Of a DNA stretch of 64,000 bases, positions 3,719 through 44,481 are shown one piece after another (the stretch's first letter is position 1; every line of letters begins with the position of its first letter). The notes beneath the pieces were generated by a model that was given only the letters and a program-made list of their open reading frames with translations, was not told the DNA's origin and did not search any database. Location of the stretch: positions 186,001-250,000 of the IMG/VR virus record IMGVR_UViG_3300027834_000005, one strand, 5' to 3'. This DNA is from a virus. A program made the position numbers and the translations under genes.

Positions 3719-4587
3719 ACAATATCTCCAGTTACTAACCATGTATTATGTGTGCCTTGGTTAAATTTAGTAATGTAAGCCCCACCGTTTATAGTTAATG
3801 TTGTTAATGCCATATCAAAATTAAAATTATCACTTGAACCAACAGGGACATTCATAGTAAAATTCTGTGTACTAGAAACTACAGTAAATGATATAAGATC
3901 GTCGGTGTCTGTTTCTACTAACGGAACGTCAGCATCTAAAGCGCCAATAAAAACATATGATGCATTATTTATAGCCATTATTTCCGTTACGGAATCATCT
4001 AATCTAGTAACCGAGTTTGAGAATTCACTGTTATCATTCACATGATCTAAAACTTCAGTGACAGTTTGGTTCTGTAAGTTACTTCCGACATGTATTACTT
4101 CGTCAGACGTGACTATGAACGATTCCTCTAGTGTTTTAAAATTGCCTGTTACTGGGTCGGTGATGTAAATTATATTTGTACTGATATTATCAACGTATAT
4201 ATTCTCCCATGTGTTTGTACTAAGACCAAAATCGAAACTTACATCAAATTCTGGAATAATACTGGAATCGGACACATCAACTGTGTTAGGATTTAAAACT
4301 ATAGGATTAAATATGTCTTCAGTTTGACCAACTAATACTTTGAGGCTGTTGTTATATATTAACGTGCCAGCTAACATAGAATCTCCTAGATTTTGGGGGG
4401 TACTAGTATTAAAATTCTCCAGCATATACATATGTTGTTGAGCAAGAATAGGTCCATAATTAACGTAGTCCTTACCAATCAACGGCAAAGTTACGTCAGT
4501 GTTTACTGTGTTGTCATCCACGGTAATAGTCGTTCCTTCTGGAATACCAGATCTGTACTCTTTATATGTTAAAGGTTTAAAAGTCAT
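3715..4587 (-). CDS. tail-fibre-type protein, diverged N-module (paralogue 3)
   Basis: 290 aa. The N-terminal [26 protein letters not shown] and LENFNTSTPQN align with the other three module proteins, but the GQLWFD signature has decayed to AGTLIYNNSLKVL. It contains DFGLSTNTWENIYVDNI, like the region YDLGSPIYRWRDTYTDNI of paralogue 1, so the second domain is shared too. Part of the minus-strand fibre operon. Its stop overlaps the next start. Confidence 0.68.
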   Translation of the reverse strand: MTFKPLTYKEYRSGIPEGTTITVDDNTVNTDVTLPLIGKDYVNYGPILAQQHMYMLENFNTSTPQNLGDSMLAGTLIYNNSLKVLVGQTEDIFNPIVLNPNTVDVSDSSIIPEFDVSFDFGLSTNTWENIYVDNISTNIIYITDPVTGNFKTLEESFIVTSDEVIHVGSNLQNQTVTEVLDHVNDNSEFSNSVTRLDDSVTEIMAINNASYVFIGALDADVPLVETDTDDLISFTVVSSTQNFTMNVPVGSSDNFNFDMALTTLTINGGAYITKFNQGTHNTWLVTGDIV

Positions 4588-6737: not shown

Positions 6738-7277
6738 ATGCGCCCTCAGAGACTAAATCAATACGATCTTCGGATCTTAATGATTTGATCTTTGATCAAC
6801 AAGTTTAAGGATGTATAATCCTACAGCCGTAGTAATGCGGGGAAGGGCGGATCTACTAACAGACCGTCACCAGTTAACCTTTGGTTTTCGGGTAAATTAT
6901 GCAAGCCGAGTTACCTGTGACTTCGTACAAACGGAGAACATGGTGTAAGCATCAGGGGTAAAATGAGATCAGGGCAACGCTGAGATCTTAGTCGGAGATG
7001 AGAATTTCCTTCACTCATACGCCTTATCGGGCAGATGTGATACCAGCAGTGACAAAGGGTAGGGTAATTGTTTGAGTCAGTGATGACAAGAGCTTTTATT
7101 CATTCTAGAGTGATCCTTCGGGTGACCTTGTTAGATGAACAGGTGTTAAAACTTGGGAGTCTTGAAAGAACGTACGGATTAGCCTCATCGGGTGAAAGTA
7201 CATAGAGATGTTGTGTATTCTGTCGCTAGAAATAGTTATGGAGCATTGTCAGCACACGTCTTGGTTAGATACAACTT

Positions 7278-7350
7278 AACGGTTTAGCTCAGTTGGTAGA
7301 GCGCTTGATTCAGACTCAAGAGGTCGGTGGTTCAAATCCATTACTCGTTT
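7278..7350 (+). tRNA. tRNA-like, anticodon CAG (Leu?), no CCA
   Basis: D-arm TAGCTCAGTTGGTAGAGC, anticodon loop TTCAGAC on a 5-bp stem, T-loop TTCAAAT and a 7-position acceptor with one mismatch. The 3' end is not CCA, and the variable loop is short, which is wrong for a leucine tRNA. It sits inside the long structured RNA, so it may be a domain of that RNA and not a free tRNA. Confidence 0.5.
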
Positions 7351-7724
7351 ACTTAATTAAAGTAAAAAAAACGCAAAGTTGTTGACGGCATAGAAGAGAA
7401 AATATCGTAATCCCGTGCATCCTCGGATGAACACGTGGTCAAAGAGAACCTGCAAAGTGATCTTTGGTTTGAAGGATTCTGCACTTTGGGCTGCAACCCT
7501 TAACTGCCTGCGAAGGTAGAAGGAAAGAAGAATTCAGAGTATCTCTATGTGACAGTGGAACCGCCTTTCCACTTAAAATAAGGCCGATATGGTAAGATAC
7601 TGGGATGGACCTACGGGTTGTCTCAGTGGATAAGTTCTTAACCGTGCATGAGCAATGTACGAGGTACGGGAACGTAAAGACTTACCGATTGTACGTATAA
7701 TCTCAACGTATTTTTATTTTAAAG

Positions 7725-18884: not shown

Positions 18885-18889
18885 AATTT

Positions 18890-18940
18890 CGCTAGTACTG
18901 GGTTCTGCCCAAGGATCGCAACCTTGGCTTAGTATTAGCG
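18890..18940 (+). ncRNA. compact three-way-junction RNA, tRNA-minihelix-like
   Basis: A 10-position closing helix (CGCTAGTACT with AGTATTAGCG, all pairable) holds GGG-TTCTG-CCC and a T-arm-like AAGG-ATCGCAA-CCTT. No CCA. It looks like the acceptor/T half of a tRNA with the rest removed. Confidence 0.45.
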
Positions 18941-18945
18941 CAATA

Positions 18946-19015
18946 TTTTGACACTACTGTCCCATGGGGGATATCCTCGAAAGAGGCAGCATGCTCTAAG
19001 TGTGCGGTGTCAAAA
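18946..19015 (+). ncRNA. structured RNA before the first hammerhead
   Basis: TTTTGACAC/GTGTCAAAA (9 bp) closes three hairpins, including CCTC-GAAA-GAGG and GCATG-CTCTAAG-TGTGC. Cloverleaf-like but lacks CCA. Abuts the hammerhead at 19016. Confidence 0.45.
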
Positions 19016-19071
19016 ACTAATCAGCTGGCCTGATGAGTCCTAACAGGGACGAAACGAGAGTAAATCTCGTC
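19016..19071 (+). ncRNA. type I hammerhead ribozyme 1, cuts at tRNA base 1
   Basis: All core elements present. CTGATGA at 19030-19036; stem II GTCC/GGAC (19037-19040, 19047-19050); GAAA at 19051-19054; stem III ACGAGA/TCTCGT (19054-19059, 19065-19070) with loop GTAAA; cleavage triplet GTC ending at 19071. Open stem I pairs CTGGC (19025-19029) with GCCAG (19072-19076), which are the first five bases of the following tRNA. Predicted cut: between 19071 and 19072, exactly the mature tRNA 5' end. Confidence 0.88.
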
Positions 19072-19154
19072 GCCAGAGTAGCAGCGTAATTGGTAGCGCC
19101 CCGCACTGTAAATGCGCATTCCCGTTGTTGGTTCGAATCCAACCTTTGGCACCA
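19072..19154 (+). tRNA. tRNA-Tyr(GTA) copy 1, hammerhead-fused
   Basis: Acceptor GCCAGAG/CTTTGGC, anticodon arm CGCA-CTGTAAA-TGCG, variable region CATTCCCGTTG, T-loop TTCGAAT, encoded CCA. Its 5' strand doubles as stem I of the ribozyme upstream. Confidence 0.85.
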
Positions 19155-19164
19155 AATTAAAAAA

Positions 19165-19220
19165 AACTAATCAGTCCGCCTGATGAGTCTTATTAGAGAC
19201 GAAACATCTTACGAGATGTC
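19165..19220 (+). ncRNA. type I hammerhead ribozyme 2, cuts at tRNA base 1
   Basis: CTGATGA at 19180-19186; stem II GTCT/AGAC (19187-19190, 19197-19200); GAAA 19201-19204; stem III ACATCT/AGATGT (19204-19209, 19214-19219) with TACG loop; C17 at 19220. Stem I TCCGC (19175-19179) pairs with GCGGG (19221-19225) of the next tRNA. Stem II, III and I sequences all differ from ribozyme 1 while pairing is kept, which is compensatory change. Confidence 0.88.
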
Positions 19221-19303
19221 GCGGGAGACGTACCACTGGAAGGTATATCGGGCTGTAACCCCGACGCGAAAGCATATAGGTTCGAGTCCTATCTCCCGTA
19301 CCA
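19221..19303 (+). tRNA. tRNA-Tyr(GTA) copy 2, hammerhead-fused
   Basis: Acceptor GCGGGAG/CTCCCGT with G1-T72, loop CTGTAAC, class II variable arm CGCGAAAGC, T-loop TTCGAGT, encoded CCA. G1 is the first base after the predicted ribozyme cut. Confidence 0.92.
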
Positions 19304-31500: not shown

Positions 31501-31844
31501 TGGCCAGATATCCAAGAAAAGAAGACATTGTGATAGGTGGAAAATCCGTCAATATAAATCCTAAAGATATTTATTTTGGTAAAGGTGCATCTCAACAATA
31601 TGGTGCTGAATATCTCATTGAAGAGATGAGTAGTGATAAGCCCTTCTCCGGTAACGTAAAAGTTCGCAGAGTTGATGATATTGCCAAGGGATATTGGTTA
31701 AGTAAGACATTTTATTGCCTAACACATCTAATCCTCGAAGAGGAAGAAAGATTCATGATAGAACTCATGGGCGGCGACACTAACAACATTAAGATAGACA
31801 ACATCCCTCTAACCGAAGAAGAGATGAGAAATGAAAACAAATAG
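31500..31844 (+). CDS. small early protein with EEEERFMIELMGGD motif, 114 aa
   Basis: MARYPRKEDIVIGGKSVNIN. Barrel-like body, motif LILEEEERFMIELMGGD, then a short acidic extension that overlaps the start of the pyrophosphokinase-like gene by 14 bp. First gene of the NAD-related block by coupling. Confidence 0.68.
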   Translation: MARYPRKEDIVIGGKSVNINPKDIYFGKGASQQYGAEYLIEEMSSDKPFSGNVKVRRVDDIAKGYWLSKTFYCLTHLILEEEERFMIELMGGDTNNIKIDNIPLTEEEMRNENK

Positions 31845-32703
31845 CATACGAGTACGTTTAGATCAAGATCACGTCCATGTCACCAGTAAGGTGTTTAGTG
31901 GCGGCGAGATTCATGTCGATATCGATAGTCTTCCGGCTAAATGTCATGATTATACGATCAAAGCGCGTTTACAAAGCAGCGAAGACATTATGCACTTCCT
32001 TACTCTCTGTGATGCTATGTGGCGTCGTTATCCAGAGGCCCATGGAAAGGTAACCATTCCGTATTTGCCATATGCAAGACAAGATCGCATGTGTTCTAAA
32101 GGACAGCATTTCGGTTTACATGTCATGTCCCAATTATTATCTACTATACCACAAAAAACAATCACTACCTATGACCTTCATAGTAAAGTGGCGTCATCTT
32201 TGTTAGCGGAAGACGGTTTTGGTGTAATAGACATCCAGCAATATGATATCTTAATGAAGCATAGCTTAGGCGAAGACCTTGCAGACGGACGATTACGTCT
32301 AGTGTCACCGGATAAGGGCGCTAAGGATAAAACTGCACAGGTAAGTTCATTTTGTAACAGTAAAATGTCTACCATCGTGGGCGGTAAGACCAGAGATCCT
32401 AAGACTGGTAAGATTACCGAGTTCACAGTTGATGAAGATGACCTATGCGGTCAAGATTTACTCATTGTTGACGATATTTGTGATGGTGGCGGCACATTCA
32501 TTGGTCTTGCTGATGAATTGAAGAAACGTGGAGCTGGAGAAATCAGCTTATTCGTAACACACGGAATCTTCTCTAGAGGGTTCGACGGATTCTCTGGGCT
32601 TATTGATCATATCTATACGACTGACTCGTTCCGACGTAGTTCAGATTTACCATTTAATGGCGTAGTGGCGGAGAATGTAACTCTGACCACTATTAAGGTG
32701 TAG
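31831..32703 (+). CDS. ribose-phosphate pyrophosphokinase-like enzyme (Prs/Adps type)
   Basis: 290 aa, near the usual length of phage Prs proteins. ATP-site segment PYLPYARQDRMCSKGQ (Prs: R-Q-D-R) and PRPP-type loop LIVDDICDGGGTFIGLADEL (Prs family: DD-x-x-D-x-GGT). Prs transfers pyrophosphate from ATP to ribose-5-phosphate. Its partner two genes on is a NAMPT homologue. In the NARP1 anti-defence pathway a Prs-like enzyme (Adps) instead charges ADP-ribose, and a NAMPT-like enzyme (Namat) joins it to nicotinamide to rebuild NAD+ after host NADases act. Whether this protein uses ribose-5-phosphate or ADP-ribose cannot be told by eye. Confidence 0.88.
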   Translation: MKTNSIRVRLDQDHVHVTSKVFSGGEIHVDIDSLPAKCHDYTIKARLQSSEDIMHFLTLCDAMWRRYPEAHGKVTIPYLPYARQDRMCSKGQHFGLHVMSQLLSTIPQKTITTYDLHSKVASSLLAEDGFGVIDIQQYDILMKHSLGEDLADGRLRLVSPDKGAKDKTAQVSSFCNSKMSTIVGGKTRDPKTGKITEFTVDEDDLCGQDLLIVDDICDGGGTFIGLADELKKRGAGEISLFVTHGIFSRGFDGFSGLIDHIYTTDSFRRSSDLPFNGVVAENVTLTTIKV

Positions 32704-32705
32704 TT

Positions 32706-32816
32706 ATGGCTATGTTACGACGGGTTAAAGTGTTTATGGCGTCATATTGTGGTTGGGGTTGTGCCAGTTACAATCCTTTATGTGATGCTTGTGATGCTAC
32801 TAGAAACGATAATTAA
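32706..32816 (+). CDS. tiny Cys-rich protein, 36 aa
   Basis: MAMLRRVKVFMASYCGWGCA, with C-x-x-x-C and C-x-x-C later. Lies between the Prs-like and NAMPT-like genes, 12 bp before the latter, and could bind metal. Too small to classify. Confidence 0.45.
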   Translation: MAMLRRVKVFMASYCGWGCASYNPLCDACDATRNDN

Positions 32817-32827
32817 AGGAGACTACC

Positions 32828-34495
32828 ATGACGGTACGATTACTAACAAAACCAGCATTTGAAGAAAAAGAGATTATCCAAGCACCCGCTTTATTGGATT
32901 TTTATAAAGCATTCCATCATCTTGCCTATCAAGACGGTGTGGAAGAGGTTGTTATCAACTTCACGGGTCGCAGCGGTAACCACAGTAACATCAAAGGCGG
33001 ATCTACGTACATGTGGGCCGGTCTTCAATCATTTATCAATGAAATCATTGTAGGTGAATGGAATAAGTTCTTTGCGGCAACTAAAGAACAGGCAGTAGCT
33101 GATTATAAGCGTGTTAATGAAGCCGGTTTAGGCGTAGTATGCGATACTAGCCATCTTGAAGCACTACATGACCTTGGATATATGCCTTTAGAGTTTAGAG
33201 GTCTATTGGAAGGGGTAGAAGTGCCATACGGCGTGGCAGCAATGACTTGCCGCAACACAATTGCCGAGTTTTACTTCCTACCGAACATGATTGAGACTAT
33301 CATGTCTGATGAAATCTGGCCAGTTCAGACTTCATTGACTACTGCGACTGAGTACATGCGTACTTTGAGTGAATTTGCCGCAATCGATGGTACTCCAGAA
33401 GGGTTACTTGGGTTCCTTATCCATGATTTCTCTATGCGCGGCATGATGGGTGGCAGAATGACAGGTGGTGCTGCATTATCTGGCATGGGACACTTGATGT
33501 CTGGCTTTGTAGGAAGCGACACAGTGCCTGCTGCATTGGCTCTGGAGAAGAACTACGGCGCTTACCTAGGCTTAGATCGTCCTTACGAAACAATCGCCTC
33601 AGTGAACGCTACGGAGCACAGTGTGCAGTGTTCTTTCAATAACAATGACTTGGCTTACTACCGTCACTGTATGAAAGTATCGCCTACTGGCATCCTTAGC
33701 TTAGTATCTGACGGTTATGACTTCTGGAAGCTTATTGCTGAAGTATTACCGGCACTTAAAAACGAGATTATGTCTCGTGACGGTAAAATCGTTATCCGTC
33801 CAGATAGCGGTGACCCAGCAGACGTGATTTGTGGTCTTCGTGAGAATATTGACTACCGTCGTACCAAAGATGGTAAGGCATACGCGATGAAATACTGGAA
33901 AGGTAGCGCCTTTATGGGTGCTGAGCAGACCGAATACGGTAAAGTAGTTAAAGAAGCAGCTCCTACTATCCCTGATATGGAAGTGAAAGGTTTAATTCAA
34001 GTATTATGGGAAATGTTTGGTGGTACTGAGTCTGGTGTTGTTGGCGGTAAGGTCTATAAGTTCTTAGACTCTCATATCGGCGCGATTTACGGCGATTCTA
34101 TCACTCTTGAGCGTCAACGTGACATTTATACACGTTTACACGCAAAAGGCTTCGCGGTAGGTAACATTGTATTGGGTGTTGGTTCTTTTACTTACCAATA
34201 TGTTACTCGTGATACTCATGGGTCTGCTGTTAAAGCGACTAATATGATTTTGAAAGGCGTAGATACTCCTATCAGCAAAGAAGTTAAGGGTGATGCGGTT
34301 AAAAAGTCTGCGAAAGGTCGTTTAGTTGTTAAGCGTATCGATAATAAGTACGTTCAATTCGATGAAGCTACTCCTGCGGGTGTTGAGGCTGACGATAATC
34401 AGCACCAACGAGTATGGATGGACGGTGAATGGATCAGAATCCAAACACTTAAGGACGTTCGTACTAATGTTAAGGAAACTTTAGAACCAGCTTGA
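32828..34495 (+). CDS. nicotinamide phosphoribosyltransferase-like enzyme (NAMPT/Namat type)
   Basis: 555 aa; cellular NAMPT is about 490. Landmarks: SVNATEHSVQCSF with the His that is phosphorylated in NAMPT, IVIRPDSGDP with the substrate-binding Arg and Asp, and LGVGSFTYQYVTRDTHG near the end, aligning with the GSGG...TRD segment. Reaction: nicotinamide plus PRPP gives NMN, or with ADPR-PP gives NAD+ in NARP1. GGAG ribosome site. Tight linkage to the Prs-like gene supplies the activated sugar. Codon use is more host-like than that of neighbouring small genes, suggesting high expression or transfer. Confidence 0.92.
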   Translation: MTVRLLTKPAFEEKEIIQAPALLDFYKAFHHLAYQDGVEEVVINFTGRSGNHSNIKGGSTYMWAGLQSFINEIIVGEWNKFFAATKEQAVADYKRVNEAGLGVVCDTSHLEALHDLGYMPLEFRGLLEGVEVPYGVAAMTCRNTIAEFYFLPNMIETIMSDEIWPVQTSLTTATEYMRTLSEFAAIDGTPEGLLGFLIHDFSMRGMMGGRMTGGAALSGMGHLMSGFVGSDTVPAALALEKNYGAYLGLDRPYETIASVNATEHSVQCSFNNNDLAYYRHCMKVSPTGILSLVSDGYDFWKLIAEVLPALKNEIMSRDGKIVIRPDSGDPADVICGLRENIDYRRTKDGKAYAMKYWKGSAFMGAEQTEYGKVVKEAAPTIPDMEVKGLIQVLWEMFGGTESGVVGGKVYKFLDSHIGAIYGDSITLERQRDIYTRLHAKGFAVGNIVLGVGSFTYQYVTRDTHGSAVKATNMILKGVDTPISKEVKGDAVKKSAKGRLVVKRIDNKYVQFDEATPAGVEADDNQHQRVWMDGEWIRIQTLKDVRTNVKETLEPA

Positions 34496-43754: not shown

Positions 43755-43760
43755 GCTCAG

Positions 43761-44116
43761 CATGAAAAGAATTTTTCTCTATAATAAGAGAAATGAAAGA
43801 ATAACTGTATGAAACTAGGATGAGCAAGGAGACACGCGGGTTCGACTCCCGCCGCTTCCACCAAAGTGATATTAAACGTGAAGTTTTTTGGATCTGTTAT
43901 GGGGGCGTTTTGGATTCGACCTTCTTGTGATTTGAGGTGGACAGTTCGGCAAATGTGAAAGTCGTTAAGAGAAACCCTTTTGGGTAAACTCTCATAGAAA
44001 CACTAAATATAATTGCTAATGAAGAATTATACGCTCAAGCTGCCTAATCGCGCTTGATGAGGTTAGAGTCACCTTATTATCCAACGACACACGAATGGGG
44101 ACTTAATGTCCCCATT
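43761..44116 (+). ncRNA. ssrA: circularly permuted (two-piece) tmRNA gene, tag ANEELYAQAA
   Basis: The acceptor piece comes first: T-arm GCGGG-TTCGACT-CCCGC (43836-43852), acceptor strand CGCTTCC, A, CCA ending 43863. After a 37-nt spacer comes the coding piece: GGGGGCG (43901-43907), D-loop TTTTGGATTCGACC, then the tag frame 44015-44047 (GCT start, TAA stop) giving ANEELYAQAA. Acceptor strands pair at all seven positions with G3-T70, the alanine identity pair. Helix P2 forms between 43921-43927 (CTTCTTG) and 43825-43831 (CAAGGAG). Order CCA-before-5'-end is diagnostic of permuted tmRNA, which is processed into two RNAs. Role: rescue of stalled ribosomes. The tag ends QAA, where ClpXP-type tags have LAA. 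A strong AATGGGGAC/GTCCCCATT hairpin marks the 3' end. Confidence 0.9.
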
Positions 44117-44136
44117 CACTTATCAGGGATTTGATA

Positions 44137-44481
44137 ATGGACAAGCACGGCCCAGTTTTAATTAATATGATACGTAGAACAGTACCGAAATTGATAGCGG
44201 AAGATCTAGTGGGTGTACAGCCTATGATATCACCTATTGCCCGATGGGAAAAATATCATGTAGTTTGGGTAATCACGACAAGCGGTGAGTTGGTATGTAA
44301 TGGCGATGTGTATATGCTAGCGAATTACGTCAACGACAAATTCACATGTAACCTAGGTGAAGTGCTAAGCGAAGAAGAGTATTTCCTAAGAGAGCTTGAT
44401 GGCTCCAATAAAGAATTAGATAATATTACTGACGTAGGTAAGGTTTTTTCCCTAAAGACTAGATATAACAGAAACATATAG
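44137..44481 (+). CDS. small protein with SEEEYFLRELDGS motif, 114 aa
   Basis: MDKHGPVLINMIRRTVPKLI start with AGGGAT upstream. Barrel-like body (KYHVVWVITTSGELVCNG), motif VLSEEEYFLRELDGSN, then 18 more residues. First gene after the tmRNA, only about 20 bp from its 3' hairpin. Confidence 0.68.
   Translation: MDKHGPVLINMIRRTVPKLIAEDLVGVQPMISPIARWEKYHVVWVITTSGELVCNGDVYMLANYVNDKFTCNLGEVLSEEEYFLRELDGSNKELDNITDVGKVFSLKTRYNRNI

Follow-up and report, generated by a model that had tools for sequence, protein, structure and literature searches.

Hammerhead ribozymes directly upstream of phage tRNA-Tyr genes as a putative source of mature tRNA 5' ends

Two hammerhead-tRNA-Tyr units in a phage tRNA array

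The window, i.e. the whole stretch of 64,000 nt that was analysed, corresponds to positions 186001-250000 of a virus record of 347,232 bases, which belongs to a giant phage. It contains a tRNA array with 35 genes called by ARAGORN and at least one missed by it, all located on the + strand. Within this array two type I hammerhead ribozymes were assigned on the same strand by sequence reading, folding, a chance test and comparison, HHR1 at 19025..19071 and HHR2 at 19175..19220. The initial annotation had described two complete type I cores each abutting a tRNA-Tyr(GUA), which direct reading and the folds confirm. The ribozymes are however not "back to back" as stated there, but belong to tandem hammerhead-tRNA units with the first tRNA and an A-rich linker of ~20 nt in between.

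HHR1 starts with the 5' strand of stem I (CTGGC, 19025-19029), followed by the core CTGATGA (19030-19036), stem II (19037-19050), GAA (19051-19053), stem III with A15.1-U16.1 counted in (19054-19070) and C17 (19071). The 3' strand of stem I is GCCAG (19072..19076). These are bases 1-5 of tRNA-Tyr(GUA) no. 1 (19072..19154), so that this strand is common to ribozyme and acceptor stem and the predicted cut lies at 19071/19072. The tRNA has an encoded CCA and an unusual 5-nt linker between acceptor and D-stem. The A-rich linker (19155..19174) ends in CTAATCAG, which is also found directly 5' of HHR1 (19017-19024).

HHR2 is built in the same order: stem I 5' strand TCCGC (19175-19179), core (19180-19186), stem II (19187-19200), GAA (19201-19203), stem III (19204-19219) and C17 (19220), with the predicted cut at 19220/19221. 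Its stem I is closed, including one G.U pair, by GCGGG (19221..19225), again bases 1-5 of the tRNA, here tRNA-Tyr(GUA) no. 2 (19221..19303, encoded CCA). Closure of stem I by the first five tRNA bases with a predicted cut at tRNA +1, as annotated initially, is thus true of both copies. Both hammerheads have a stem II of 5 bp, the cleavage triplet GUC and helix I as the open end (type I topology); some relatives described below carry GUA or GUU, likewise in agreement with NUH. For HHR1 and HHR2 alike, the minimum-energy fold and the centroid are exactly the hammerhead.

The tRNA predictions agree with these borders. ARAGORN in default mode calls tRNA-Tyr no. 2 at exactly 19221-19303. It misses tRNA-Tyr no. 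1, for which relaxed ARAGORN gives a start at exactly 19072 and Rfam a tRNA match at 19083-19143. For at least 33 other tRNA genes of the array no ribozyme was detected.

Two unannotated structured RNAs lie shortly before HHR1: a long hairpin at 18888-18946 (z -4.0) and, at 18949-19013 (z -3.1), a four-way junction that resembles a cloverleaf but has neither T-loop nor CCA.

Chance expectation and model scores

The pattern CTGATGA...CGAAA is present twice in the window at an expectation of 0.16. Full hammerheads, defined as three helices plus NUH, also number two, compared to 0.033 on average and never more than 1 when the window is dinucleotide-shuffled 150 times.

A covariance-model search had been proposed as a check in the initial annotation. 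The Rfam type I model (RF00163) matched HHR1 and HHR2 and no other place in the record of 347 kb. The scores, 20.8 and 16.7 bits, stay below the curated cut-off of 34, which is a score threshold and no biochemical criterion. Hence Rfam at curated cut-offs reports no hammerhead in the window, and both copies surface in E-value mode only. The remaining Rfam matches at the hammerhead sites are tRNA, the RAGATH-1 hammerhead and chance-level hits. Units of this kind are overlooked by default Rfam cut-offs and default ARAGORN.

Recurrence in other phage contigs

IMG/VR was scanned for hammerhead patterns, both alone and combined with a downstream tRNA T-loop or anticodon motif, and the matches were then screened for complete hammerheads and tRNA starts. 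As the relaxed ARAGORN table holds spurious tRNAs distant from the cuts, a pair was kept only if its acceptor, T-loop and 3' end could be read. Eight other contigs (L016, L107, L136, L140, L141, L228, L234 and L271) contain an exact junction of a hammerhead with a tRNA-Tyr. L228 and L230 are one sequence. Although the scans tolerated offsets of tens of bases, the offset is 0 at all ten tRNA-Tyr junctions. Deviations are few: helix I of L271 has one A.C mismatch, and in L228 the cleavage-site base is U, as a rule a less favourable one for hammerheads.

Two further junctions concern other tRNAs. In L132 the cut lies one base 5' of the ARAGORN start of a tRNA-His and thereby at G-1, the normal extra base that forms the correct mature 5' end of bacterial tRNA-His. 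In L134 it is one base 5' of a tRNA-Gly. About ten other hammerheads are situated 3-19 nt upstream of other tRNAs, with leaders of 3 nt for tRNA-Ala (L421), 6 nt for tRNA-Leu (L408), 7 nt for tRNA-Ile (L414), 8 nt each for tRNA-Gly (L411) and tRNA-Lys (L427), about 13 nt for tRNA-Glu (L405), 15 nt for tRNA-His (L446), 18 nt for tRNA-Pro (L629) and 19 nt for tRNA-Thr (L620). A loose hammerhead pattern occurs once per record and twice in two among the 12 junction records checked, hence the junction phages are not crowded with hammerheads.

The loop II subfamily CTGAYGAGTCYTANNRGRGACGAAAY was also scanned without requiring a tRNA. This gave nine stretches, of which seven have a tRNA-Tyr at the cut, representing six distinct units since L228 and L230 are identical. 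In L395 the hammerhead lies before a gene with no tRNA, and L396 lacks helix III. L107 shares a near-identical ribozyme and upstream sequence with L141 and L234 while the tRNA-Tyr bodies are quite unlike, which means that the ribozyme persists through a change of the tRNA body. Loop II is conserved across the tRNA-Tyr hammerhead subfamily, and by sequence reading NAR stands just 5' of stem I in the tRNA-Tyr relatives with the exception of L016. The conserved NAR and loop II suggest a putative tertiary contact between helix I and loop II, a feature associated with fast hammerhead cleavage.

At least three unlike ribozyme types are represented at the junctions (the CTGAYGAGTCYTANNRGRGACGAAAY subfamily, L016 and L132/L134), suggesting that hammerhead-tRNA junctions may have arisen more than once. 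The relatives are partly related by descent, therefore independent origins are fewer than ten.

Several neighbouring observations were made on the way. L421, L408, L592, L620, L629 and L414 represent a second class of phage hammerheads 5' of tRNAs, in which helix III is long; L421, L592, L620 and L629 share GAACA facing AGTAxC, a loop E-like arrangement. In L140 a hammerhead of the loop II subfamily (1441-1520) uses the 5' half of a hairpin lying downstream (GGGGAAGA...TCTTCCCC) as its helix I strand; the logic of strand exchange is as in the tRNA units, but no tRNA lies at the cut. A gene for a small basic DUF7230 protein runs into or near the hammerhead-tRNA-Tyr unit in L107 (8287-8460), L228 (6765-6959) and L140 (1998-2123); the phage of the window has one DUF7230 gene, elsewhere in the genome.

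Among the matches listed for bacterial genomes, L315 (Microbacterium sp. oral taxon 186) was the one related case; its hammerheads at 4399 and 4564 lie 14-15 nt upstream of a tRNA-Ser and a tRNA-Leu. BLAST of the hammerhead-tRNA units of five relatives against named phage isolates returned tRNA similarity only, and a sixth such query no match. Related tRNA-Tyr loci of five isolates are without hammerhead, as seen from the sequence in Acj61, PA1C and Sixama and from the short gap before the tRNA in phage 133 and Acibel004.

Covariation of the shared strand

Nine tRNA-Tyr copies were aligned in fixed register with the helix III loops removed, since MAFFT misaligned helix III in the raw sequences. 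All 117 cells (13 pairs in nine copies) hold standard pairs and the core is invariant. Covariation in homologues, which the initial annotation had named as a test, is present: across the nine copies 8 of the 13 hammerhead pairs show double-sided changes. The covariation score is 0.66, against 0.24 in shuffles and at most 0.16 in slid controls; when the partners are shifted by 1-3 columns, 27-48% of cells are paired. These statistics are strong, yet not fully independent, since part of the copies' similarity reflects common descent.

In the same nine rows 62 of 63 acceptor stem cells are paired. Bases 2-4 of the tRNA are the most variable (base 3 occurs as C-G, G-C, U-A and A-U) and still pair with both partners. 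The acceptor 5' strand covaries with the ribozyme as well as with the acceptor 3' strand. When the ribozymes are swapped among the eleven junctions helix I breaks, and none of 100,000 permutations reaches the 55/55 pairs.

Folding during transcription and proposed mechanism

Based on this analysis, a cis-acting type I hammerhead quite probably makes the mature 5' end of phage tRNA-Tyr by cutting co-transcriptionally at +1. Since bases 1-5 of the tRNA form the 3' strand of helix I, transcription of the cluster would yield a complete ribozyme as soon as about 5-7 nt of the tRNA are made. A cut between -1 and +1 would then produce the ends that hammerhead cleavage generates as a class, with the 2',3'-cyclic phosphate on the RNA 5' of the cut and the 5'-OH on tRNA base G1. 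With emergence of the tRNA 3' half, the 7-bp acceptor stem would displace the 5-bp helix I and the tRNA would be freed.

Partition function calculations are largely in line with the last step. In the two window copies the probability of helix I falls from 0.98 and 0.74 with 7 nt of tRNA to 0.01 and 0.00 with the full tRNA. L107, L136, L140, L132 and L134 show such a drop too, and it is less clear in L141, L228, L234 and L016. Product release by tRNA folding, as put forward in the initial annotation, thus agrees with the calculations for seven of eleven junctions including both in the window, the last-mentioned four being less clear. For HHR2 the calculations predict a weaker helix I already at 20-60 nt of tRNA, so cleavage would have to be quick.

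A role in tRNA 5'-end maturation, likewise part of that annotation, gains support from the eight offset-0 tRNA-Tyr junctions, the tRNA-His cut at G-1 and the acceptor-strand covariation. Cleavage probably takes place in infected cells and would be the main route to the tRNA-Tyr 5' end. The shared strand offers a simple model in which a ribozyme is switched off by the folding of its own product.

Alternative functions

The hammerheads could also serve mainly to split a long transcript, with tRNA +1 merely being a convenient site, and an identical end could come from host RNase P. Prophage hammerheads flank genes and have been proposed to process long transcripts (PMC3088659). In our dataset small ORFs stop just 5' of the ribozyme or run into it in L107, L141, L228, L234 and L140, the about ten hammerheads at 3-19 nt indicate that an exact end is not always required, and the subfamily member in L395 exists without tRNA. 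However, the RNA upstream of HHR2 is another tRNA and no mRNA. Moreover, splitting alone demands neither +1 at ten of ten tRNA-Tyr junctions nor G-1 at tRNA-His, and the first five tRNA bases themselves belong to the ribozyme. We thus regard this explanation as unlikely, and generation of the tRNA 5' end remains our preferred reading.

A second possibility starts from the 149-nt RNA made of tRNA-Tyr and HHR2, which the tandem hammerheads bound and which might be excised and then circularised or repaired by a phage RtcB, in a retrozyme-like or tRNA-repair route. Its ends would suit RtcB, and the phage does encode an RtcB RNA ligase outside the window (G000:C1:28574-29701, E 5e-131). In relatives, though, there is one hammerhead per tRNA-Tyr and not the pair that marks retrozymes, no retrozyme features were seen, only 2 of the 12 other records examined have RtcB, and repair of cut tRNAs offers a simpler explanation for the phage enzyme. 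A role of RtcB in the hammerhead-tRNA units is unsupported by this co-occurrence, and the route as a whole is very improbable.

That the elements are inactive relics or resemble hammerheads by chance would fit the scores under the Rfam cut-off and the short helix I, but is hardly credible given that nine divergent copies keep the core unchanged and every helix paired and show double compensatory changes, as well as an expectation of 0.03 hammerheads per window.

Relation to RNase P

The 5' ends of tRNAs are usually made by RNase P. The initial annotation had spoken of the hammerheads as replacing this enzyme, which is too strong, since the at least 33 array tRNAs without ribozyme need the ordinary route. 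Together with the related tRNA-Tyr genes of the isolates, which have no ribozyme either, they indicate that RNase P evidently suffices for most phage tRNAs. Type A RNase P RNA (RF00010) gave no match in the 347 kb record, in a search with the model of this type. Without a type A RNA of the phage, the array tRNAs lacking a ribozyme presumably rely on the host enzyme.

For tRNA-Tyr, the offset-0 recurrence in eight other contigs suggests that phages may finish the 5' end without RNase P. In the wider sense we lean towards a natural, recurrent RNase P-independent 5'-end route that would concern mainly tRNA-Tyr, in which helix I is partly the tRNA acceptor strand, tRNA folding ends the reaction and the phage exploits the 5'-OH. 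An AAA_33-type kinase able to phosphorylate the 5'-OH was searched for and not found. If true, the route would be a natural exception to RNase P at the level of single genes, in a virus.

Absence of U8 was considered as a ribozyme-linked trait and dropped, because it is also common in phage tRNA-Tyr without hammerhead. Among the fetched phage loci U8 is missing in 18 of 33 tRNA-Tyr genes, hammerhead or not, versus 60 of 658 other tRNAs.

Comparison with known systems

By core, helices and topology the phage units are members of the hammerhead class, as judged from sequence. These features and the NUH triplet are like those of the type I hammerheads of phages and prophages (Perreault et al. 2011, PMC3088659). 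Those known examples flank protein genes, whereas here helix I is a tRNA acceptor strand and the predicted cut falls at tRNA +1. What hammerheads do in prokaryotes and phages has been described as one of the field's open questions (PMC6155905); the present units allow a specific function to be proposed, with a defined cut site and product.

The closest parallel is provided by theta ribozymes (Kienbeck et al. 2024, PMC10879173), which are likewise small, self-cleaving, found in phages and cut adjoining tRNAs. They have been proposed to act in tRNA maturation as an alternative to the tRNA 3'-end enzymes, in a paper without mention of hammerheads (PMC10879173). In contrast to their HDV fold at the tRNA 3' end, the fold here is that of a hammerhead at the 5' end, the side of RNase P. 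Rfam found none of the HDV-like families in the tRNA array. Considered together with theta ribozymes at 3' ends, phage tRNA arrays may recruit self-cleaving RNAs more broadly.

In the artificial transzyme a hammerhead is also placed directly 5' of a tRNA and its self-cleavage sets the tRNA 5' end. The transzyme is engineered, and the phage unit appears to be its natural counterpart. A T7 hammerhead-tRNA-Tyr construct has supplied tRNA-Tyr in vitro for a TyrRS study (PMC6310243).

RNase P itself shares the position of the predicted cut, -1/+1, and G-1 for tRNA-His. It is a trans-acting hydrolase that leaves a 5'-phosphate, in contrast to the cis-acting hammerhead and its expected 5'-OH. No earlier report of a hammerhead at tRNA +1 was found in the open-licence literature, although subscription journals may hold one; relative to the open-licence literature searched, the tRNA 5'-junction context of a hammerhead appears to be new.

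Other features of the phage

The window contains further RNA elements. A GOLLD-like large RNA is located at 7205-7709 (122 bits, E 2.8e-32, under the curated cut-off of 150), and a tRNA-Leu is nested inside it at 7278-7350. A phage tmRNA at 43760-44138 is indicated by Rfam RF04321 (permuted tmRNA) and by ARAGORN (tmRNA*, tag ANEELYAQAA). The region 31831-34495 carries NAD-related genes, i.e. a ribose-phosphate pyrophosphokinase and a nicotinamide phosphoribosyl transferase.
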